DNA of 21,829 bases, taken from IMG/VR virus record IMGVR_UViG_3300036861_000203, positions 1 to 21,829 of that record; one strand, written 5' to 3'. Source of the stretch: a virus. Of the stretch, positions 3,219 through 17,311 are shown piece after piece. The notes beneath the pieces were generated by a model, which was not told where the DNA came from, made no database searches, and saw only the letters and a list, made by a program, of their open reading frames with translations. Position 1 is the first letter of the stretch. Each line of letters starts with the position of its first letter. The position numbers and the translations under genes are program-made.

Positions 3219-5384
3219 TTAGTCTCCCTCCATGATGGCGATGATCTTTTCTTCGACCATCACCCCGGCCATATGCGCCAGTTCCTGATTACTCATGCCA
3301 GGCTGCTGGTAAATAGACGCGGTGACATTGATCCCGCCGCGATTGCCGCCCCTGAATGCGCTGGCGAGATCCTGCTGTGAAAAGTTACTGCCCAAGACTT
3401 CACGCATGAGGTTCGAGACGGAGCGGTTGGCGACAACTTCCCCTTCATGGGTCATTCCGCCGTCCCTCGACCAGCTTGTGCCCTCTGCATACTGCGAGAC
3501 GCCGCCGCGACGGGCTACACCCACGGAACGGGGCAAGGGCGTGACGGTAGGCACGTTGGGGTTGATAGACGGTGTCGTAGCAACGGGCCCGGTGGTCACA
3601 ATCGGCCCCGCATACCCCTGCTGAACGGCGGCAGCCGTTGCCCTGCCCTGCTCACGCAACACCCAGGCCTGGATCTCGCGCTCGGCGTCGGCCAGGCCCT
3701 GCTTGTACAGATTGATCATCCGCCCGTTGTGGGCGCCGAGCGCGTTGAACTCGGCAATAAAGCGGTTGTTCTCCTGGTTCAGCTCGCGCGTATGCTGGGA
3801 GGCAATCTTCGCCAGCCGGTCAGCATGCTGCCGGTCGAGCTGGGCGGATTCCTCGCGACCCTGTTGGATGAGTTCTTCACGATGGGCGCGTGCCTCGTCC
3901 TGGCGGACGGCTTCTTCTTCGGCGAAGGTCGCGCGTAATTTCTCAATTCGCGCCGCGTCGGCTGCGTTGTCGGCGGCCACGCGCTCGGTAATCGACCTGA
4001 TATGATCCTGTGTCGCCTCGCGGTCCTTATCGCGCTGGGCCTTGAAGTTGTCCTCGGTCTGACCCTTCCGAATACCAAAATTCTTGAGTTCTTCAAAAAC
4101 GGCCCTGGCGTCGAGCCGGGAAGCCGCCTCAAGTAAATTCTCCTTGTGCTCGCGCTCCATGTCGGCCATCTCGCGCTGGTGGTCGGCGAGAGCCCGCAGT
4201 TCATCCTTTTGAGCCGTGGTCTTGATCTTGTCGATTTCTTCGGCGGCCTGGACTTCACGAGTCGCCGCGTTGTCACGAACGGCCTGAATCTGTTTATCCG
4301 CGTCGGATACTGCTCGGCTGTGCCGTTTGGACTCATCGGCGTCGAACTTCGTAATTTTCTTGACGTACTCTTTCTCAAATTGCTCGCGCTTCTCATGGAA
4401 GTCGTTCTCTTCTTCCAGGATCTGCTCGTTGGCCTGCGCGTCGATCTCGGCATTGCGCTCCTTGTGGGCAATGAAGGCGCGATCCTGTGCTTCGGTCGCC
4501 TTCTGAGCCTCGGCGGCATTGTTCGCGGCAACCTGTGTTGAACCGAGGGCCCGATTCAGGCCGTCGATCTCGTTCGAAGTCTTGGCCGTCGATTTTTGAA
4601 GCTCGGCGATCCGGTCGTCCATTCCCTTGAACTGACCGGTGAGGAATGCAATGCCTTCTGCACCCAGCGGATCTTTAAGCGCCGCTTCGAGCGAGGGCCG
4701 CCTGGCATCTTGAAGGGTCTTGAGTTCGGCCTGCTCCGCTTCGTTCTTGGCCTTGAGCGCGGCAATCTGCTTGTTGATCGACTCGGTCGTGCCTTGCTGG
4801 ATCGCGTCGTAATAGGTTTTTAGACCTGCAACCGCAGCCTGAAGGCCCTGCTTGCTGGCTTCAAGCTTGTCGTTGAACAGTTTCAAGCCGACGGCTACAG
4901 CACCCAGTATCCCGACAACGGGGAGCGCAATTGCCAATACGCCTGATAGGCCAGTACCGAGCCCGGTTGTTACGGAAATGAGGCCGCCGAACTTATCGAC
5001 CAGGCCGCCGATCAGGCCTCCCGACTCGGCTACCTTCAGCACAAGGGGTTCGAGCGCCTGGTCAAGCTGCTTCAGGCCACGAACCGCATTGATCGCCTGC
5101 CCGGCGCTTTGCAGACCTTCGCCACCCGGAATGTTCAGCCTGTTGAGCAATCCACCGGCGGCAGACAGTCCCTCGCCACTAATGCGGAGTTTTGCAGCTT
5201 TTTTTGCGGTATCGTCGAGCCGCCGACCCAGGTTGTCGATTTTCTGCCCGGCGCTGTCCAGCGCACGGGTCATGCCGACCGATTCGCGCTCGACGACCTT
5301 ACGCGCGTTGACAATCCCACTGGTCGAGATCGAGATGTCGCCTTGAGCAGAACCCAGCGGGAATCCGCCAGCGTTATCGGTCAT
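3219..5384 (-). CDS. Tail tape measure protein
   Basis: The 721-residue product has typical tape-measure organisation. A small-residue-rich N-terminal part is followed by a hydrophobic stretch at about 143-170 (AIALPVVGILGAVAVGL core). A very long, charged heptad-type coiled coil runs from about 171 to 560, full of Lys, Glu, Gln and Arg. The C-terminal part is Gly-rich and includes SQYAEGTSWSRDGGMTHEGE, resembling the terminal segments of other tape measures. Tape measures fix tail length, fill the tail tube and contribute to DNA entry. At roughly 1.5 angstrom per residue the length would suit a tail of about 100 nm, a rule-of-thumb estimate. Start ATG 5384 has GGAGAAG eight bases upstream. 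It is followed at once by the tail-tip genes, as in siphoviruses. Confidence 0.9.
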   Translation of the reverse strand: MTDNAGGFPLGSAQGDISISTSGIVNARKVVERESVGMTRALDSAGQKIDNLGRRLDDTAKKAAKLRISGEGLSAAGGLLNRLNIPGGEGLQSAGQAINAVRGLKQLDQALEPLVLKVAESGGLIGGLVDKFGGLISVTTGLGTGLSGVLAIALPVVGILGAVAVGLKLFNDKLEASKQGLQAAVAGLKTYYDAIQQGTTESINKQIAALKAKNEAEQAELKTLQDARRPSLEAALKDPLGAEGIAFLTGQFKGMDDRIAELQKSTAKTSNEIDGLNRALGSTQVAANNAAEAQKATEAQDRAFIAHKERNAEIDAQANEQILEEENDFHEKREQFEKEYVKKITKFDADESKRHSRAVSDADKQIQAVRDNAATREVQAAEEIDKIKTTAQKDELRALADHQREMADMEREHKENLLEAASRLDARAVFEELKNFGIRKGQTEDNFKAQRDKDREATQDHIRSITERVAADNAADAARIEKLRATFAEEEAVRQDEARAHREELIQQGREESAQLDRQHADRLAKIASQHTRELNQENNRFIAEFNALGAHNGRMINLYKQGLADAEREIQAWVLREQGRATAAAVQQGYAGPIVTTGPVATTPSINPNVPTVTPLPRSVGVARRGGVSQYAEGTSWSRDGGMTHEGEVVANRSVSNLMREVLGSNFSQQDLASAFRGGNRGGINVTASIYQQPGMSNQELAHMAGVMVEEKIIAIMEGD

Positions 5385-5450
5385 GCCGAGTCTTCTCCAG
5401 CCGTTTCATTGTCCTGCCCAGCACGACCAGTCACGACAAGACACCCTTCG

Positions 5451-5801
5451 CTACCCCAATAACTGCTCGACCTTGTCCCAGATGATCCCGCTCCACTTAT
5501 CGAGCGTGGGCCCAACAATTCCGAGTGATCCAGCTCGAACCGTCTCTAGAAATTGCCCGTAATCCACGCCGTGCCCGAAGGCGATCACGATGCTGTCAAC
5601 CAGGTCGTATACCTCGCTATGCAGAGAAGCACGCGCTAGACCTGTATCATCCTTCCAGCTTGCGTTTCGCTGCATGTCTTCGGTGATCAGCGGCGCGTAG
5701 GCATTTGCCAACCGCAAGATCGCGCCATGCAATGCCTGGCGATAGGCCTCGAAGCCCGGCACAAAGGTGTCAGTTGGCGTTTTCGTCCACTTGAAGCCCA
5801 A
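5451..5801 (-). CDS. HK97 gp10-like minor tail/neck protein
   Basis: A 116-residue protein. I prefer TTG 5801 as start (first residues MGFKWTKTPTD) because AGGAAG lies seven bases upstream, whereas the TTG at 5825 has no ribosome binding site. With this start it overlaps the end of the chaperone extension by 32 bases. The pattern is a helix (YRQALHGAILRLANAYAPLI), then ASWKDDTGLARASLHSEV, a beta strand, GHGVDYGQFLET and a C-terminal GPTLDKW helix. This matches the HK97 gp10-like family of small tail/neck proteins. In HK97 itself the relative lies between stopper and tail terminator; here it sits between the chaperones and the tape measure. Confidence 0.7.
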   Translation of the reverse strand: MGFKWTKTPTDTFVPGFEAYRQALHGAILRLANAYAPLITEDMQRNASWKDDTGLARASLHSEVYDLVDSIVIAFGHGVDYGQFLETVRAGSLGIVGPTLDKWSGIIWDKVEQLLG

Positions 5802-6129
5802 CGCTGCTCTTCCTTCGACTGACAAAGCCGGGAATCGCTTCGAGGCGACTGATCGCGGCTTCCAGCTCCATCATGATCTCGTCGTCGAGAATTTCCGCGA
5901 GCGAATCGCCCTCGACCAGCCTGTTTTCGGCCCACACGCCAAAGCGGATCAGGGCCTCATCGAACATCAGCGCCGTCAGATGGTCTGCCATCCCCAGCGT
6001 TTGACTGGCCCAGCGCCCGATCCCCAGGATTTTGCTCGCCCGTCGATGGGTGTACTTCTGAAGTTCCCAGATGCGCCAGAGCAGTTTCTTGCTGGCGAAA
6101 GTGGGACGCCAGCATGCGCGCTGGCGTTC
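5770..6129 (-). CDS. Tail assembly chaperone extension (gpT-like, reached by frameshift)
   Basis: This frame is +1 relative to the preceding chaperone gene. It is open from just after an in-frame TAG at 6130-6132 down to the stop at 5770 and overlaps the upstream gene over 5957-6129. Its translation has a sensible helical look from KKLLWRIWELQKYTHRRA onward, continuing through MADHLTALMFDEALIRFGVW and an acidic C-terminus. Position before the tape measure matches the lambda G/T arrangement, in which a rare frameshift makes a longer chaperone. A +1 shift would give a fusion of about 241 residues, a -2 shift about 242. Alternatively ATG 5991 starts a separate 73-residue protein, but only GCTGGGG precedes it. 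I could not locate the slip site; candidates include TTT-C at 6097-6100 and two TGGGGAT runs near 6022 and 5991. Confidence 0.6.
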   Translation of the reverse strand, partial: ERQRACWRPTFASKKLLWRIWELQKYTHRRASKILGIGRWASQTLGMADHLTALMFDEALIRFGVWAENRLVEGDSLAEILDDEIMMELEAAISRLEAIPGFVSRRKSSVGLQVDENAN

Positions 6130-6530: not shown

Positions 6531-7427
6531 TCAAACAGGCGGAATGGTCACAGGCACGGCAGTTTCGTGCTCGATCAGCTCTGTGACGGTGGCCTTGGCT
6601 TCGACACCCTGCGTCGTCCTAGCCACACTCGCCGTCGGGCTCGATCCACCCGTCAGACCAGCGCCGTTGGCCGTGATGAGCGGCAAGGGCTGCGAGGCAA
6701 GGGTGCCCTGGAACGTGATCGTGACCGGTGTGCCCGGCAATGGGCCGCCGCCGCACACGACGTTGCCGGTACCAATCGTCGCGAGCGCCACCAGCGCGGT
6801 CTGCACTGCGGCAGCCGCCGCGTTGTAGGCAATGGTCGCGGTGGTCGCGCCCATGAACGTCAAGAGGAACGTGCCGCCCGTAGGCGTACCCGTGATGGTC
6901 AGCGTCTGGAGTTCGTTCGTGCCCGCGACCGCGATGTACAGGTCGTCGGGCAGCATCTCGGCTTCGAATTCCGGGATCGTGTACTGCCCGTTCTGCATTT
7001 CGATGAGCGTGATGTCCGACACGATCTTCATCTTGGGTATCCAGGCGTGGATATCCCCCAGGGCGTTCGTCGAGGCGGATTTACCGCACATGCCGAAATA
7101 CTTCATCGACTCCGCCGCGAGCTTCATCCTGCGCACGCGGTTGGGCGTCGAGCCGGTCGAACCGAGCACCTGGTTCGAGATCGCCAGAATCACGTCCAGG
7201 CTGAGCCCGCCCCAGCGACCCCGGCAACGACCGGCGATGATCTTGGCGTGAACGTCCGTCTTCACGTCGTCGCCGAGTAGTTCGCCATTGACCATTTGTG
7301 CCGTAATTCCCATGAGTTGTGCGCTTGGCACGTCGTAATTGATGCCGTATGTGCCATCGCCCAGCCAGGGCGCGACCTTGGCATCCTTGAGACCGAAATT
7401 GACCCCTGCAACGCCCCAGTTAGGCAT
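6531..7427 (-). CDS. Major tail tube protein with inserted beta domain
   Basis: The 298-residue product lies between the tail terminator and the chaperones, as expected for the tube protein that polymerises around the tape measure. Residues 1-168 form the tube core (opening MPNWGVAGVNFGLKDAKVAP). Residues about 170-274 are a separate beta-rich, Thr/Gly/Ala-rich domain that also occurs in the adaptor gene of this window. The tube sequence then resumes and ends VTELIEHETAVPVTIPPV, which reads like a normal tube-protein C-terminus. The extra domain therefore seems inserted just before the final strands and would probably project from the tail surface. Start ATG 7427 has GGAGGG upstream. Confidence 0.8.
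   Translation of the reverse strand: MPNWGVAGVNFGLKDAKVAPWLGDGTYGINYDVPSAQLMGITAQMVNGELLGDDVKTDVHAKIIAGRCRGRWGGLSLDVILAISNQVLGSTGSTPNRVRRMKLAAESMKYFGMCGKSASTNALGDIHAWIPKMKIVSDITLIEMQNGQYTIPEFEAEMLPDDLYIAVAGTNELQTLTITGTPTGGTFLLTFMGATTATIAYNAAAAAVQTALVALATIGTGNVVCGGGPLPGTPVTITFQGTLASQPLPLITANGAGLTGGSSPTASVARTTQGVEAKATVTELIEHETAVPVTIPPV
6606..6920 (-). repeat. Shared beta-domain module, copy in the tail tube gene
   Basis: This stretch encodes tail tube residues 170-274. It contains GTPTGGTFLLTF, TIAYNAAAAAVQTALVAL and GAGLTGGSSP, matching adaptor residues 21-113 closely (35 of 50 identical in the first aligned block). The DNA copies are also recognisably similar, but diverged. I recall this Thr/Gly-rich domain type from other phage and bacterial surface proteins, which was not checked here. 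Confidence 0.75.
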
Positions 7428-7442
7428 TGTCGTATCCCTCCG

Positions 7443-7907
7443 TTAGCTTGATTGTCGCGAGCCGTTTACCACGAAATCGATCCGGAGCGCAGCCGCAAGG
7501 TCAAGCTCTGGATCGCGGATGTTGTTCAGATCGTTTATCCAACTGACGATGCCGCCGCCGACGAGGCCCACGTCCTCTAAATCCTTGTAGATCTGGGCCC
7601 TCGCGGTCTCCAGCGTCGTGTAGCCAGCATCGCCATCGTTGTAGAGCCACACTTCGACGACCTGGCGCAGGCTGGCGTACTGCTGATCGGAGTCGCGCAG
7701 GCCTCCTGCCGGGATCTGATCGCGCGCCTTCACCAGCGCACATGGGCGCAGAAACCCGGTGCTCGGGTCAAACGGGCTTGGCGACATGTCGCGCGTGATG
7801 CCCAGGCGCCGTGTGTCGGCGCTGTAGGCATAGACCCCACCCGTCAGGGTTGCGCCGAGCGTTCCGTCGGCGGCTAGGAGCGCCTTGATCGTCGTCTCGA
7901 AGCTCAT
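7443..7907 (-). CDS. Tail terminator / tail completion protein
   Basis: A 154-residue protein whose ATG 7907 overlaps the stop of the upstream stopper gene (ATGA). The N-terminal helix (FETTIKALLAADGTL) is followed by GGVYAYSADTRRLGITRDM, then strands such as LRQVVEVWLYND and a helix TTLETARAQIYKDLEDV. It closes with a strand (AALRIDFVVNGS). This is the usual make-up of small tail terminator proteins such as lambda gpU or HK97 gp11-type, which cap the growing tail tube and form the tail side of the head-tail joint. The call rests on this pattern plus its place between stopper and tail tube; the family was not verified. Confidence 0.7.
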   Translation of the reverse strand: MSFETTIKALLAADGTLGATLTGGVYAYSADTRRLGITRDMSPSPFDPSTGFLRPCALVKARDQIPAGGLRDSDQQYASLRQVVEVWLYNDGDAGYTTLETARAQIYKDLEDVGLVGGGIVSWINDLNNIRDPELDLAAALRIDFVVNGSRQSS

Positions 7908-8290
7908 GCGCCCTGGCTCACTTCGCCGATGACCTGCAGACTCTCGCGGGTATCGACCAGGATCTGGGTGACGGTGTACATCGTGCTGTCAGCCGTCAGG
8001 TAGAAGCGATCCCCACGTTTCAGATCGGTGTCGGCGATCGTCGGATGCCCTCGGTAGCCGACGATGAGGACACCGGCGTTTGCTACCGTCGCATTCTGGC
8101 CGCGCGTCTCACCCGGTCCGCCGAGCTCCTCGATCCGCACTATCTGGGCAGCCAGATCGGCACCGTTGCGACGGACGACGATGCTGGTCGTCTTGTCGGC
8201 GATGACTTGCGCCGTATCGACCGCCTGATCCGCCCCGGCCAGCCATGACGGCAGCGGAAAGCTGTTGCCCTGCCACTCGTTGATGCTCAT
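7904..8290 (-). CDS. Head-closure (stopper) protein
   Basis: A 128-residue, mostly beta-strand protein. Start ATG 8290 overlaps the adaptor stop (ATGA), and its own stop overlaps the next start (ATGA), so adaptor, stopper and terminator form a translationally coupled trio. The small barrel-like pattern (TSIVVRRNGADLAAQIVRIE, then GVLIVGYRGHP, RGDRFYLTADSTMYTVTQIL) resembles SPP1 gp16 / HK97 gp7-type stoppers, which plug the head channel after DNA packaging. The function is inferred from order and fold pattern. Confidence 0.65.
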   Translation of the reverse strand: MSINEWQGNSFPLPSWLAGADQAVDTAQVIADKTTSIVVRRNGADLAAQIVRIEELGGPGETRGQNATVANAGVLIVGYRGHPTIADTDLKRGDRFYLTADSTMYTVTQILVDTRESLQVIGEVSQGA

Positions 8291-8901
8291 GCGGTCGGCT
8301 CCGGTTCATCCAGGCCGAGCGAGAGCGTGCCCGAACTGAGCGAGCCGCCCTCCATGCCAGCGGTCTTCTCCCACCGGTCGAGCAGCTTCTCCAGACCTTC
8401 GCGGATCTGCTGCTTCTGGTAGCTCGTCTGGCCCACGGTGTACGAGAAAAACTTGGCGCTCTGGGCCAGGATCTGACGCAGGCCGGTGACGACGGTTTTG
8501 TCGTAATCTTCGCCGGACCGGGTCCAGAAGCGCTGCAGCTCGGCGTCGGTGAAGACGACGTTGATCGCCGCACTCACCGCCGGGCTGCTACCCCCGGTGA
8601 GACCGGCCCCACTGCCGGTCAGGAGCGTCGCACCCTCGCGGTTGATGGTCACCGTCCATGGACCGCCGGCGTTGCCAGCGACCGTTGCCCCGCCTGCGCC
8701 GATTGTCGAGAGCGCGACAAGCGCTGCCTGAACCACGGAGGCCGCGGCATTATAGGCAATGGTCGTGGTGGTCGCGTCCTGATAGGTCAGCGTGAAGGTG
8801 CCGCCGGTCGGGTTGCCGGTCAGCGTTACCGTCTGGATGGCGCTGGTGATACCCAGGTCCCCACGCAGATCGGCGAGCTGGGCGCTGTCGAGGGCGGTCA
8901 T
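8287..8901 (-). CDS. Head-tail adaptor protein with inserted beta domain
   Basis: The 204-residue product would be an ordinary HK97 gp6-type adaptor if residues 21-113 were removed. The N-terminus (DSAQLADLRGDLGIT) joins naturally to VVFTDAELQRFWTRSGEDYDK, followed by helices LRQILAQSAKFFSYTVGQTS and REGLEKLLDRWEK. These adaptors form a ring beneath the portal and connect head to tail. The intervening block is the Thr/Gly-rich beta domain shared with the tail tube gene. A short Ser/Gly/Glu-rich tail follows. Start ATG 8901 overlaps the upstream stop (TGATG). Insertion so near the N-terminus of an adaptor is unusual; I am confident of the adaptor core, less so of what the domain does. Confidence 0.8.
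   Translation of the reverse strand: MTALDSAQLADLRGDLGITSAIQTVTLTGNPTGGTFTLTYQDATTTTIAYNAAASVVQAALVALSTIGAGGATVAGNAGGPWTVTINREGATLLTGSGAGLTGGSSPAVSAAINVVFTDAELQRFWTRSGEDYDKTVVTGLRQILAQSAKFFSYTVGQTSYQKQQIREGLEKLLDRWEKTAGMEGGSLSSGTLSLGLDEPEPTA
8563..8841 (-). repeat. Shared beta-domain module, copy in the adaptor gene
   Basis: This stretch encodes adaptor residues 21-113, including GNPTGGTFTLTYQDATTTTI, AYNAAASVVQAALVALSTIG and GAGLTGGSSP. It corresponds to tail tube residues 172-274. The middle part is shorter than in the tube copy, and the boundaries coincide with where the adaptor core sequence breaks off and resumes. Confidence 0.75.
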
Positions 8902-10285: not shown

Positions 10286-11386
10286 TTACGCGGCCAATGG
10301 AGCGGTGAAGCCCGTTGGGATTGCGTACGAGCCGTTACCGATTCGTTGGATGCAGGCGCCGACCCTGTTGAGCGCGCCGAACCCGGCGAAGCGGATCGAC
10401 CGGAAACTCTTCAGATTGCCGTCCGGCGAGAAGAATTCAGGGAACAGGCCCTGGATCGAAGCCGCCGGATACTGCCGCATGCCGAGCACGTCGTTGGCGC
10501 CGCGCGCATGAGCGATGATGTAGTTGTCAGGCAGCGCGCCCCACTCGATGATCCACACGCCGTTGGCCTTGCCGACGACCCGGTCGCCGAAGCCGACCAT
10601 CGCCCCGCCATACGAGGTCTCGTCGTGGATGTACTGCACCTCGGCCAGCGTCTGGGCCGTGTCGGCATAGGCTATCGACACGTCGGGAGGTTCGTCGAGC
10701 GCGGTCAGAAGCTGGATCGAGGCCACCAGGTTCGTCGGCACGTAGGCCACATACGGCCCGGAGTTCGACGGGTGCTCGTCCAGTTCCGCGTAGATCGCGC
10801 CGAACGGATTCGCCGCGTCGGAGATCGCCGCCGCCTGCGCCAGGAAATGGTTGTCGGTCGCGATCGTGCCGTTTTTGCGCAGGAAGACCACCGAGTCGTT
10901 GTTGGCGAGCGGCTGGATGGTCAGGTTGCCGTACTGCTTGTCGGCATAGGTCCAGGTCGTGTTGGTGAACAGCGCGGCCAGGATGTGCCGGCGCATCCAA
11001 TCCACATCGCGGTCGAGTGCGTCGACCGTGTAGCGGTTGGCGTCGGCGACGGTCATCATCGCATTGGAGATGCGGTCCGTGCCCCAGGCCGTGCCGCCGC
11101 CCTGGATGGGGAAGGCGACATCATAGAAACCCGAGGGCTGCACCTCGATCGGATTGCCCTTCTCGTCAAGCGGTTGGAGCGAGCCGCCGCTTGGCAGTTG
11201 ATAGCGCCGGGAAAAGTCCGTGGTCGGCTGCACCATCGAGCCGAGCAGCTCGGTCACCTGGCGCGAGTGGATCTCCAGCGACTGCTCGACCGCCGTCTGG
11301 ATGGTCTGCACGTTGATCTGCTGCACAGTCTGCGAGAACAGATCCTTCAGTTCGACAAAGCCATAAGCCGTAACGTTTGCTGGCAT
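10286..11386 (-). CDS. Major capsid protein (HK97 fold)
   Basis: A 366-residue protein with AAAGGAGG just upstream of ATG 11386, the strongest ribosome binding site in the window, overlapping the previous stop. It follows scaffold and decoration genes and precedes connector genes, the classical capsid position. Sequence features fit HK97-fold shells: a helical N-terminal arm (FVELKDLFSQTVQQINVQTI), an extended strand region (PIEVQPSGFYDVAFPIQGGG), a spine-helix-like segment, and a C-terminal domain with RSIRFAGFGALNRVGACIQR. It begins without an obvious long cleavable propeptide, consistent with a separate scaffold protein. Assignment is by context and pattern. Confidence 0.85.
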   Translation of the reverse strand: MPANVTAYGFVELKDLFSQTVQQINVQTIQTAVEQSLEIHSRQVTELLGSMVQPTTDFSRRYQLPSGGSLQPLDEKGNPIEVQPSGFYDVAFPIQGGGTAWGTDRISNAMMTVADANRYTVDALDRDVDWMRRHILAALFTNTTWTYADKQYGNLTIQPLANNDSVVFLRKNGTIATDNHFLAQAAAISDAANPFGAIYAELDEHPSNSGPYVAYVPTNLVASIQLLTALDEPPDVSIAYADTAQTLAEVQYIHDETSYGGAMVGFGDRVVGKANGVWIIEWGALPDNYIIAHARGANDVLGMRQYPAASIQGLFPEFFSPDGNLKSFRSIRFAGFGALNRVGACIQRIGNGSYAIPTGFTAPLAA

Positions 11387-13738: not shown

Positions 13739-14187
13739 GTCAGGTTCCTCAGATCTTGAACAATGTCGATAAGTACGGCCTGGCGCGTGCGGCCCGGCGA
13801 GTTGTTGATGACCGGAATCTTGGCGGTGTTGATCCCGAACTCGCTCAGGAAATAGGCAATGAACGCATCGCGCTGCACCGTCGTGATGATGTTCTGGCGG
13901 TTGTCGAACGAGGGCGTGGCAACGTCCACCTCCCACCGCGCAAGAGGCATGTAGTGCGTGTCCGCGTTGATGGCCGTGAGCATGGCATCGTCAATCTTGC
14001 CCAGGGCCATCGTGCAGTACAGGGCCGAGCGAGCCGTGATGATGGGCCCGTCCTGCTGGCCGAGATCTGTCCAGCCAGCCTCTTGCCCCAGACTGCTGGG
14101 CGAAGGGTAGGTTTCGGCAACGGCCATGACATTGCGACCGTTGACCGTTGACCACTTCGTGAAGAGAACGATTTTGTAGACTGCCAT
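13735..14187 (-). CDS. Conserved-looking phage protein, unknown function
   Basis: A 150-residue protein starting at ATG 14187 in a TAATG overlap with the upstream gene and ending in an ATGA overlap with the next. It has strands at the N-terminus (AVYKIVLFTKWS), a Gly/Pro-containing middle (GQEAGWTDLGQQDGPIITAR) and helices toward the end (TTVQRDAFIAYFLSEFGINT, RQAVLIDIVQDLRNLT). No signal peptide or membrane segment. I do not recognise the family. Coupling to the beta-domain protein upstream suggests the two are made together, perhaps as fibre and base or chaperone; this is only inferred. Confidence 0.55.
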   Translation of the reverse strand: MAVYKIVLFTKWSTVNGRNVMAVAETYPSPSSLGQEAGWTDLGQQDGPIITARSALYCTMALGKIDDAMLTAINADTHYMPLARWEVDVATPSFDNRQNIITTVQRDAFIAYFLSEFGINTAKIPVINNSPGRTRQAVLIDIVQDLRNLT

Positions 14188-15755
14188 TAACCCGCGTCCA
14201 GTACGTTATAGGCCGGTGAACTGCGCCTGTAGCTGATGAGCGAGCCCGGCGTCGTGCCGGTCGCATAGACGGTGTTCAGGCCCGTCGCTGTATTGAAACT
14301 GGCGTTGTTGACCTGCACGCCGCGCTTCGTCCAGGTCGAGCCAGTTTTAGTGTAAGCGTCGTGCAGGTTGCCGTCACAGATGACTCGAAGCGTGTCAATA
14401 GACCCAACGCCGTTGACGTTGAGCCGGTTGCTTGCTGTACCCGCAACAACGCTATCCAATAAGAAATCCCAGGCAGTATTTCCATCATTGCGCTGCACGT
14501 AGGAGACCCAGTAATTCTGGTCGTCCTGAATGCGGTAGCGCAGTTCTACTCGCTGCCCCGCTACCGGACTGCCCGGCAGCGTGAACGCGAAGTCGATGAT
14601 GGAATTGGCGTCCATCGTGACCTGGGCGTTGAGGGTCAGGAGCTTAAGCGATACGTTGTCGATGGTGATGTCGGTTGGGTTGGTATTCGCCGTCGCGAAG
14701 AAGGTCGCGCCATCAGCACGGGCAATACCAGCCTTGCTCGTTACGGCGCTGTTTACGCCGCCTATCGCTTTGTTGTTCAAAAACATCGCGATATTGCCGG
14801 AGGCGAAAGCAGTGAGATCGTAGGTTAGCTCGTACCAACTGCCACTAGTCAGGATTGATTGCGTGATCCAGAGTGTTCCTGCTGCGCTCCGAAAGAAATT
14901 CGCAGCACCTGTACCGGCCCCGGCGTGTGTCGCTCCCGATCCGCGCTCCGTGACTTCACCGTTAGCCGGTTCACCTGATGGCGCTGACCAGCCGTTCGGG
15001 TTGTCACCTGTCCACGCTGCGAAATTGCCGTTGACTACCAGTTCCGACCCCACAGACTGGGTAAAGGTCGTGATGTTGTTCTCGGTGATGCCGTTGTCAG
15101 ACGAGAATGCGCCGCCGAGGTCGCGCACGCGGAGGTACTCTGAAGTACCGACGTTTGTTTCATTGGCGAACTTAGGCCGAATCGACGCGCCGTTCTGAGA
15201 TAGATCAACCCACACCAACGTCCAAACGCCGCCCGTTTTCCAGAAAGTGAAATTACCGACGCTGCGCAATACGATGGCAATCGCATAGTTGCCATTAACA
15301 ACCGAGGGCAATAAAACGAGATTGGCCGTGCCGTTCCACCACGAAAGACCCGTGCTGGCAATATTCAAGTTTCCGTTGTCGAAATCGCCCGGCGCTGACG
15401 TGATGCCCGTACCTGCCCCCCAACCGATCAAATGACCGGCGTTGGTCAGGGTCGTAAACACCAAATCCTGAATCATGGCTCGCCCGATGGCACGGGCCAG
15501 CGCTGTCGTTGCGTAATAGCCCAAATCGCCAAAGACAGGTGTAGCTTGCGCCGGAAAATTCAGCTTGCCGCTGACAATGGAAAACTGTCCATCGACCTGC
15601 GTCAGCGTCAGCGTGCCCGGCCCTGGCTCGGCGTTGCGCGGCGACGTGAGCGGCGCACCGGCGTCTGTCGTGAACTCGTCCTTGAGCAGCCACACGGCAG
15701 CCCCGCCCCTGCGTTTCCGACTGCTCCTGGAGAACTTCGCCGCAGAGAGGGCCAT
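14187..15755 (-). CDS. Multi-domain carbohydrate-binding-like virion protein
   Basis: A 522-residue protein with ATG 15755 overlapping the portal stop (TAATG). After a basic N-terminus (SRSSRKRRGG) come three beta-rich parts. Residues about 27-210 look like a LamG/concanavalin-like sandwich (VDGQFSIVSGKLNF, YAIAIVLRSVGNFTFWKTGG). About 237-375 look like a CBM4/9-type jelly roll: it opens ELVVNGNFAAWTGDNPNGWS and closes TDITIDNVSLKLL. About 376-522 look like a second concanavalin-like sandwich. Such architecture suits binding to surface glycans by a head fibre or appendage. Its place between portal and scaffold, rather than with tail genes, makes a head-attached or accessory protein more likely than a tail fibre. 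No catalytic motif is evident. Confidence 0.65.
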   Translation of the reverse strand: MALSAAKFSRSSRKRRGGAAVWLLKDEFTTDAGAPLTSPRNAEPGPGTLTLTQVDGQFSIVSGKLNFPAQATPVFGDLGYYATTALARAIGRAMIQDLVFTTLTNAGHLIGWGAGTGITSAPGDFDNGNLNIASTGLSWWNGTANLVLLPSVVNGNYAIAIVLRSVGNFTFWKTGGVWTLVWVDLSQNGASIRPKFANETNVGTSEYLRVRDLGGAFSSDNGITENNITTFTQSVGSELVVNGNFAAWTGDNPNGWSAPSGEPANGEVTERGSGATHAGAGTGAANFFRSAAGTLWITQSILTSGSWYELTYDLTAFASGNIAMFLNNKAIGGVNSAVTSKAGIARADGATFFATANTNPTDITIDNVSLKLLTLNAQVTMDANSIIDFAFTLPGSPVAGQRVELRYRIQDDQNYWVSYVQRNDGNTAWDFLLDSVVAGTASNRLNVNGVGSIDTLRVICDGNLHDAYTKTGSTWTKRGVQVNNASFNTATGLNTVYATGTTPGSLISYRRSSPAYNVLDAG

Positions 15756-17311
15756 TACTGCGCCTCCTGTGCGTATTCGCCGCCGCTCGTGATCTGCACC
15801 GGTTCCGCAGGCGGTTCCTGCCCACTCGGTAGCTGACTCTGCTGAGCCGCCATGAGCGCGAGCTGCGCCTTCATGAGCCGTTCCTGCTCCCACTCGGCAA
15901 TCGTATCGTCGGCGACGTCCAGTTCCTTCCAGATGGCCGAGTCCGGCGCGTTCGACTGCTTGAGGAGCTCGATGCGTTCCTTCTTCGAAATCTGGTCCTT
16001 GATGACCGACCGGTCGGCTATCGAGAATTCGAGGTTGCCCAGCCGGTAACTGTCGAGCGAGAACGCCAGGAAGCCGTCGTAGCGGTTATAGCCGCCAATC
16101 GATACGCCCATCTGCAGCGCGCGTACCAGCCCGTCGTCGTAATTGCCTCGCGCCTCGACGATCTTCTCCACAGCGTCCTGGTAGCCGGCCTCGACGCCGG
16201 GCGCGGTCAGGTTGCCGCCCTCGCGAATGTGATACAGCGACAGCTCCGGCAAATCGCGCTCGATCTCGGCCAGCTTATACTGCACTTCCTGGCTGGCCGC
16301 GGCGATGTCGAGCTGCGCGACCATGGCGTGCGGCTGGCTGTCTTTGGGCCCGTAGACCGCCGGGATGCCGTCTTTCTCGTCGACCGAAATATCGAGGTCC
16401 TCACGTCTGGCGACGCCGGCGTAATACCAGACCAGGTTGACGGCCTTGCGCACCTGGTCGGACAGAAGCGAGGCGGCGTCGTTCAGCTCGTCGATCTTGT
16501 CGAGCGAGGCATGGTAGGCGTTGGCGCCGAAGGCCAGGCCCACGTCCTTATGCTGGACGATGACCATGGGCACGAAGCCGTACTCGTTCGGCCATTCCGC
16601 GACCGCATTGCCGCGGGCGTCCATGTAGAAGGCGTAGGGCTTGCCGTCGCGAAACGTCTGGAATTTGTCGCCGTCGATGTACTCGGTGTAGCAGTACTGC
16701 TTGACCTGCATCATGGGATTGGTCGGCGAATACTGCTTTTCCTCGTAGCGGTAATACTCGAGAGTCACGGCCTTGACGTTGCCGACCTGGTCGAACTCGG
16801 CATGCTTGACGATGCCGGGCATGAGCATCTCCAGGCGGACCTGGCCGCGCTCGCGGTCGTCCACGACCTTGATCACCGAGTCGCCGAACTTCGCGCCGTT
16901 GCGGACGTAGACCGACTTCTGGGTGCCCAGGTTCGAGGCGACGACGAGCTGCCGCAGGGCTTCACGCAGGGTGTCGTCGGCCTGGGCGATGGGCAGCGCA
17001 CCCTTGCGCAGATACTCCAGGTCGATTGATCCGCCGTAGCACTTGGCCGGGTACATGTCGACCAGGCGCTGCACCGGGTTGTAGATGCCGCGCGTGTACT
17101 TGTACAGGCCCTTCTGGTGCTTCAGCACCGCGCCGTAGGCGAAGATCGAGGCGTAGGTCTTGTTGTTGTAGCGCAGGTCGCTGTCGTAGTAGCGCGATAG
17201 GCGGACAGGGTAAGTGTCCCAGCCGAGTTCCTCGCGGGGCACCGTGGCCTGTTCGCTGAAGGCATTAATGGCCGCCCGGCCTGCTGCTACCATACGGTCC
17301 CACAGTCCCAC
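15755..17311 (-). CDS. Portal protein
   Basis: A 518-residue protein starting at GTG 17311 with GGGGGAG nine bases upstream, the ribosome binding site lying within the end of the terminase gene. Size and position right after the large terminase fit the portal, the dodecameric ring through which DNA is packaged. Sequence features fit SPP1 gp6-like portals: RLVDMYPAKCYGGSIDLE, a mixed alpha/beta body with EYGFVPMVIVQHKDVGLAFG, the long helical region around DKIDELNDAASLLSDQVRKA and IAAASQEVQYKLAEIERDLP, and a Gln/Glu/Pro-rich flexible C-terminus. It is coupled to the next gene by TAATG. Confidence 0.9.
   Translation of the reverse strand: MGLWDRMVAAGRAAINAFSEQATVPREELGWDTYPVRLSRYYDSDLRYNNKTYASIFAYGAVLKHQKGLYKYTRGIYNPVQRLVDMYPAKCYGGSIDLEYLRKGALPIAQADDTLREALRQLVVASNLGTQKSVYVRNGAKFGDSVIKVVDDRERGQVRLEMLMPGIVKHAEFDQVGNVKAVTLEYYRYEEKQYSPTNPMMQVKQYCYTEYIDGDKFQTFRDGKPYAFYMDARGNAVAEWPNEYGFVPMVIVQHKDVGLAFGANAYHASLDKIDELNDAASLLSDQVRKAVNLVWYYAGVARREDLDISVDEKDGIPAVYGPKDSQPHAMVAQLDIAAASQEVQYKLAEIERDLPELSLYHIREGGNLTAPGVEAGYQDAVEKIVEARGNYDDGLVRALQMGVSIGGYNRYDGFLAFSLDSYRLGNLEFSIADRSVIKDQISKKERIELLKQSNAPDSAIWKELDVADDTIAEWEQERLMKAQLALMAAQQSQLPSGQEPPAEPVQITSGGEYAQEAQ

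Follow-up and report, generated by a model that had tools for sequence, protein, structure and literature searches.

A shared decoration domain in the head–tail adaptor and the tail tube protein of one phage, most likely acquired twice

The minor capsid protein of phage Patience carries a "peanut-like" domain that is missing from its relative Adjutor (PMC10635136), and in Douge, outward-projecting domains of the capsid and the tail tube bind glycans of the mycobacterial surface (PMC13033339). Glycan binding has also been proposed for the Ig-like domains of phages in general (PMC8718954, PMC9230969), and a survey of such domains by Fraser and colleagues distinguishes, as summarised in PMC7602432, five classes of host protein, head–tail adaptors not being among them. 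Here we describe a domain that occurs both in a head–tail adaptor and in a tail tube protein of a single virus. The window, by which we mean the whole stretch of 21,829 nucleotides analysed (IMG/VR record IMGVR_UViG_3300036861_000203, positions 1 to 21,829), holds the following features:

6531..7427, minus strand: host of copy 2, a tail tube (major tail) protein of 298 aa, matching the phrog_4971 major tail family at E 6.6e-15
6603..6926, minus strand: shared decoration domain, copy 2, tail tube residues ~168-275, in the C-terminal slot
7443..7907, minus strand: small gene encoding 154 aa; a probable tail terminator from its place in the gene order alone, without family match
7904..8290, minus strand: small gene encoding 128 aa, between adaptor and tail tube; a probable stopper, again from gene order alone, with no noteworthy family match
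8287..8901, minus strand: head–tail adaptor, gp6/gp15-type connector, 204 aa, host of copy 1 (phrog_1732, profile matches to neck structures, gene order, helices)
8557..8841, minus strand: shared decoration domain, copy 1, adaptor residues ~21-115, between helices 1 and 2 (AF2 pLDDT of about 88-97 for most of its length)
10286..11386, minus strand: major capsid protein, matching phrog_3990 major head protein at E 7e-19 and lacking the domain

Between the portal and capsid genes, the sequence of a 568-aa protein (14187-15893, minus strand) suggests on visual inspection a carbohydrate-binding or lectin-like component of the virion; it has no Pfam or PHROG match.

A sequence-only reading of this DNA had claimed that the adaptor and the tail tube protein carry the same domain, and this is confirmed both by a direct comparison of the two proteins (BLASTP, 55 identities over 100 positions, E 3e-6 for the single comparison) and by alignment of the two copies, in which 55 of the 94 aligned residues of the ~95-residue domain are identical. 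Its count of 35 identities among the first 50 aligned residues was exact, and the DNA is indeed still recognisably similar, with 70% identity over the first 50 codons, 63% overall and an ungapped alignment of 157 nt at 71%. When the adaptor was used as query against its own 21.8 kb virus record, the second copy was recovered at E 2.7e-24; the search of the window detected no third copy beyond those of the adaptor and the tail tube, and the window's major capsid protein gave no match to the domain.

The adaptor is identified by profile matches to neck structures, the gene order and the pattern of helices. Its family profile was built from three rows, the window adaptor and two members from other phage contigs (L130 and L131) that are without the domain. 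In the PDB this profile matches best, at E 6e-4, a phage protein of the Sf14 neck structure 9c39 (PMC11821841); next come a phage protein of the Bas63 connector, structure 9mt4 (E 5e-3), and then a portal adaptor (E 0.1). The genes run in the order capsid, adaptor, two small genes of connector size and tail tube, and the AF2 model has a helix at residues 6-16, the domain and then helices at 119-129, 135-153 and 160-181, a helical core that accompanies the family profile; adaptor-core fold matches were absent from the structure-search list, which was filled by matches to the domain. Given the modelled order of one helix, the domain and three helices, the domain is a true insertion, placed in the loop that links adaptor helices 1 and 2. 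The flanks fit the same layout: positions 27-92 of the phrog_1732 profile match adaptor residues 115-180, that is, after the domain, and positions 9-28 and 29-118 of the adaptor-family profile, of which the window protein is itself one of the three rows, match on either side of it. With family profiles matching both flanks, the adaptor reads as continuous once the domain is removed, as had been suggested. Scans with single sequences found no relatives with similarity to the adaptor, and phrog_1732 had no match in 34 bacterial genomes or in the control genomes, an uninformative negative.

The tail tube protein, which has 27-28% identity to major tail proteins of Gordonia phages and whose gene precedes genes of chaperone size and that of the tape measure, holds the domain in a different manner. 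As only ~24 residues follow it, the domain resembles a C-terminal module more than an insertion, and the earlier view that this host, too, is continuous without the domain therefore holds in a weaker form. In the Gordonia phage Rumi, the same slot of the tail tube is occupied by an FN3 domain (Pfam E 5.6e-9). In another tail tube protein of phrog_4971 (L138:543-1757), the shared domain lies between parts matching profile positions 1-253 and 238-280 and is followed by a sub-threshold FN3 fragment, a sequence arrangement suggesting that the domain was inserted into an FN3 region. With the window domain, the FN3 domain of Rumi and the combination of domain and FN3 fragment in L138, the C-terminal end of the tail tube seems to be a slot that can be filled in at least three ways. 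Predicted from domain rows only, the tail tube core had a pLDDT mostly below 50, and this low-confidence part of the model did not enter the analysis.

In the scan for the domain, 303 viral contigs gave matches, and the best 80 of these were retained. Hosts of the domain include capsid proteins (phrog_283, 777 and 10), tail tube proteins (phrog 792, 117, 476 and 4971) and a lambda-D-type head decoration protein, and copies in two or more ORFs occur in 25 of the compared records, that of the window among them. Several virion proteins unrelated to one another thus contain the domain, which is optional in them: adaptors without it exist in L130 and L131, and a relative of the tail tube has FN3 instead, which supports the idea of a promiscuous decoration module on both the neck and the tail of one virion. 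Copies are also present in contigs of bacterial genomes, mostly Actinobacteria, some of them clearly within phage proteins; giant planctomycete ORFs of 2500 or more residues (in L152, L159 and L171) have four to six domain matches. A long ORF resembling RHS repeats (L191:1-6132) contains one copy. Searches of the phages by tblastn gave eight records with the tail tube copy and nothing with the adaptor copy alone, perhaps owing to low-complexity filtering and divergence. The window copies have no match among Pfam or NCBIfam models, and the domain is hidden within PHROG models titled major tail protein and tail sheath, from where it can mislead the annotation of capsids and adaptors.

We consider it probable that the window copies represent a decoration domain of the unnamed type present in Bxb1 gp23, the Bxb1 capsid and the Patience minor capsid protein, that two virion proteins gained it independently and that it serves as outward-facing, dispensable and weakly host-adhesive knobs. 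One copy would have entered the adaptor loop between the first two helices, the other the C-terminal decoration slot of the tail tube. Siphophages have about 12 adaptor copies round the neck and six tail tube subunits per ring, and the virion would accordingly present some 12 domains at its neck and six on each ring of its tail tube. To judge by related virion proteins, the domains would face outward, projecting as knobs that the particle can do without. By analogy with Douge, with the phage Ig-like domains in general and with the Patience minor capsid protein, their role is likely to be weak adhesion to the host surface: by binding surface polymers loosely, the knobs may keep the virion close to the cell up to the moment at which the tail tip engages. 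The sequence profile of the window domain did not recover the Douge domains among its relatives, and the functional analogy with them is therefore loose. The domains could instead be structural clamps that stabilise the neck and the tail tube by contacting neighbouring subunits, and such a role would suit the internal rather than terminal position in the adaptor and has a parallel in inserted tail tube domains that add ring contacts, such as domain 2 of YSD1 (reviewed in PMC8718954). We find this unlikely, however, as relatives exist without the domain or with FN3 in its place, the host proteins are unrelated and differ in geometry, and a single family would hardly serve as a specific clamp for capsids, tubes and adaptors alike.

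The assignment of the domain to the Bxb1 and Patience type is based on both a profile match and a shared fold over most of the domain. The sequence profile matches Bxb1 gp23 (8e-45), the Bxb1 capsid (1.4e-13), the Bxb1 tail tube (2.4e-7) and Patience gp22 (1e-3). Structures were predicted from alignments of domain rows only because two true adaptors, when added, misaligned into the domain; in both proteins, the pLDDT of the domain was mostly around or above 90. Compared with the same four proteins, both window copies give Z of 10.7-16.3 at 1.8-2.8 A over 84-106 residues; the match in Patience covers residues 101-187, which we infer to be the "peanut" domain, its description giving the fold no name (PMC10635136). 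The predicted order is strand, strand, helix and further strands, and what had been called a beta domain is thus slightly off the mark: the strands are there, but the fold includes a helix and is predicted to be mixed alpha/beta, not clearly Ig. A classical Ig-like domain, another member of the set surveyed by Fraser and colleagues, would account for the similar spread across virion proteins that is reported for such domains (PMC7602432), but is quite improbable: besides the order of its elements, the fold has as its next neighbours below the Bxb1 and Patience group the sheath inserts and flagellin/FliD domains (Z ~4-7.5), with antibody domains reaching a Z of only about 3, and neither window copy is matched by an Ig, FN3 or Big model. 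The similarity of the predicted fold to flagellin/FliD domains may serve as a lead only, with Z values of about 5-7, in the range that the structure-search tool calls common.

The presence of two copies in one genome could reflect their common origin there or separate arrivals. Across 222 domain copies, the two window copies are 58% identical to each other and rank 26 and 36 of 221 as each other's partners, each having at least 25 closer relatives in other phages or bacteria. In a tree of 90 rows and about 99 columns, most of it unresolved, the adaptor copy pairs with the tail tube copy of another contig, L077 (support 99/82), and the window copies are not sisters; a tree forcing them together is rejected weakly (p-AU 0.037, marginal with about 99 columns). 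Identical residues use the same codon in 25 of 55 cases, against 22.5 expected from codon usage, so the similarity of the DNA follows from that of the proteins; synonymous sites look saturated. A recent duplication, as had been suggested, or a gene conversion in this genome that copied the domain between virion genes would fit the recognisably similar DNA and has a possible precedent elsewhere in the family but is very improbable here, given the ranks, the pairing with another phage's tail tube copy, the weakly rejected two-copy clade and the lack of a synonymous excess. The precedent is L051, in which two virion ORFs (3824-4981 and 4591-5979) have copies 79% identical that use the same codon at 48 of 71 shared residues against 32.5 expected; this excess makes L051 a candidate for recent within-genome copying, a process that may therefore happen in the domain family and of which the window phage bears no sign. 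Of the suggested mobility, the shuffling of the domain between phages stands and the element-like part does not: no long repeats border the domains, only the domain itself repeating at length and other repeats being short and non-flanking. Independent acquisition of the domain, twice, by virion proteins of this phage is the most likely history, and the separate pasts of the two copies are moderately well established.

The domain itself is an already known kind of decoration module, widespread, swapped often and seen in cryo-EM structures; what appears new is its place within a protein of the neck ring. Among the ~140 loci examined, no adaptor other than that of the window was found to contain it, and as the sampling was limited and the adaptor profile weak, rarity in adaptors is, from these sequences, likely and short of proven. 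Five adaptor-like ORFs have an unrelated insert of ~70 residues at a different site (L042:1129-1740, L010:1185-1856, L045:1341-1943, L020:4538-5155 and L016:3129-3743), the matches of the last two being weak. More tentatively, and with the odds somewhat against it, a widely shuffled family without a Pfam model, whose fold could resemble flagellin D2 and sheath inserts more than Ig, may be insertable in the 12-fold adaptor and make the neck an extra adhesive surface, a sixth class of virion host beyond the five surveyed for Ig-like domains. The adaptor case suggests that the neck ring tolerates a domain of ~95 residues in one loop, and the family offers a test case for why phages put one module on different parts of the virion.

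Among described systems, the nearest is Bxb1, whose capsid (9d9w/9d9x), tail tube gp19 and tail-tip cage gp23 (9d93) belong by profile and fold to the family of the window domain and in which, as in the window phage, the domain is shared by several virion proteins; the Bxb1 hosts are the capsid, tail tube and tail tip, and unlike in the window, no match to any Bxb1 adaptor appeared. The minor capsid protein gp22 of Patience (8giu) shares the fold (Z 10.9-11.7), on a virion surface protein where the domain is apparently optional, but is distant in sequence (E 1e-3) and sits in the head, not in the neck or tail tube. Adaptors of the phrog_1732, HK97 gp6 and SPP1 gp15 kind are like the window adaptor in their helical core and gene position and differ from it in that the members in L130 and L131 do without the domain. 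The Ig-like, FN3 and Big decorations on the tail tubes of lambda (gpV), T5 (pb6), SPP1 (gp17.1*) and Douge are of another sequence family and probably of another fold, yet they form an outward C-terminal module, as the tail tube copy of the window probably does, they are exchanged between phages, as the window domain is, and weak adhesion to glycans has been proposed for them as it is here for the window domain.
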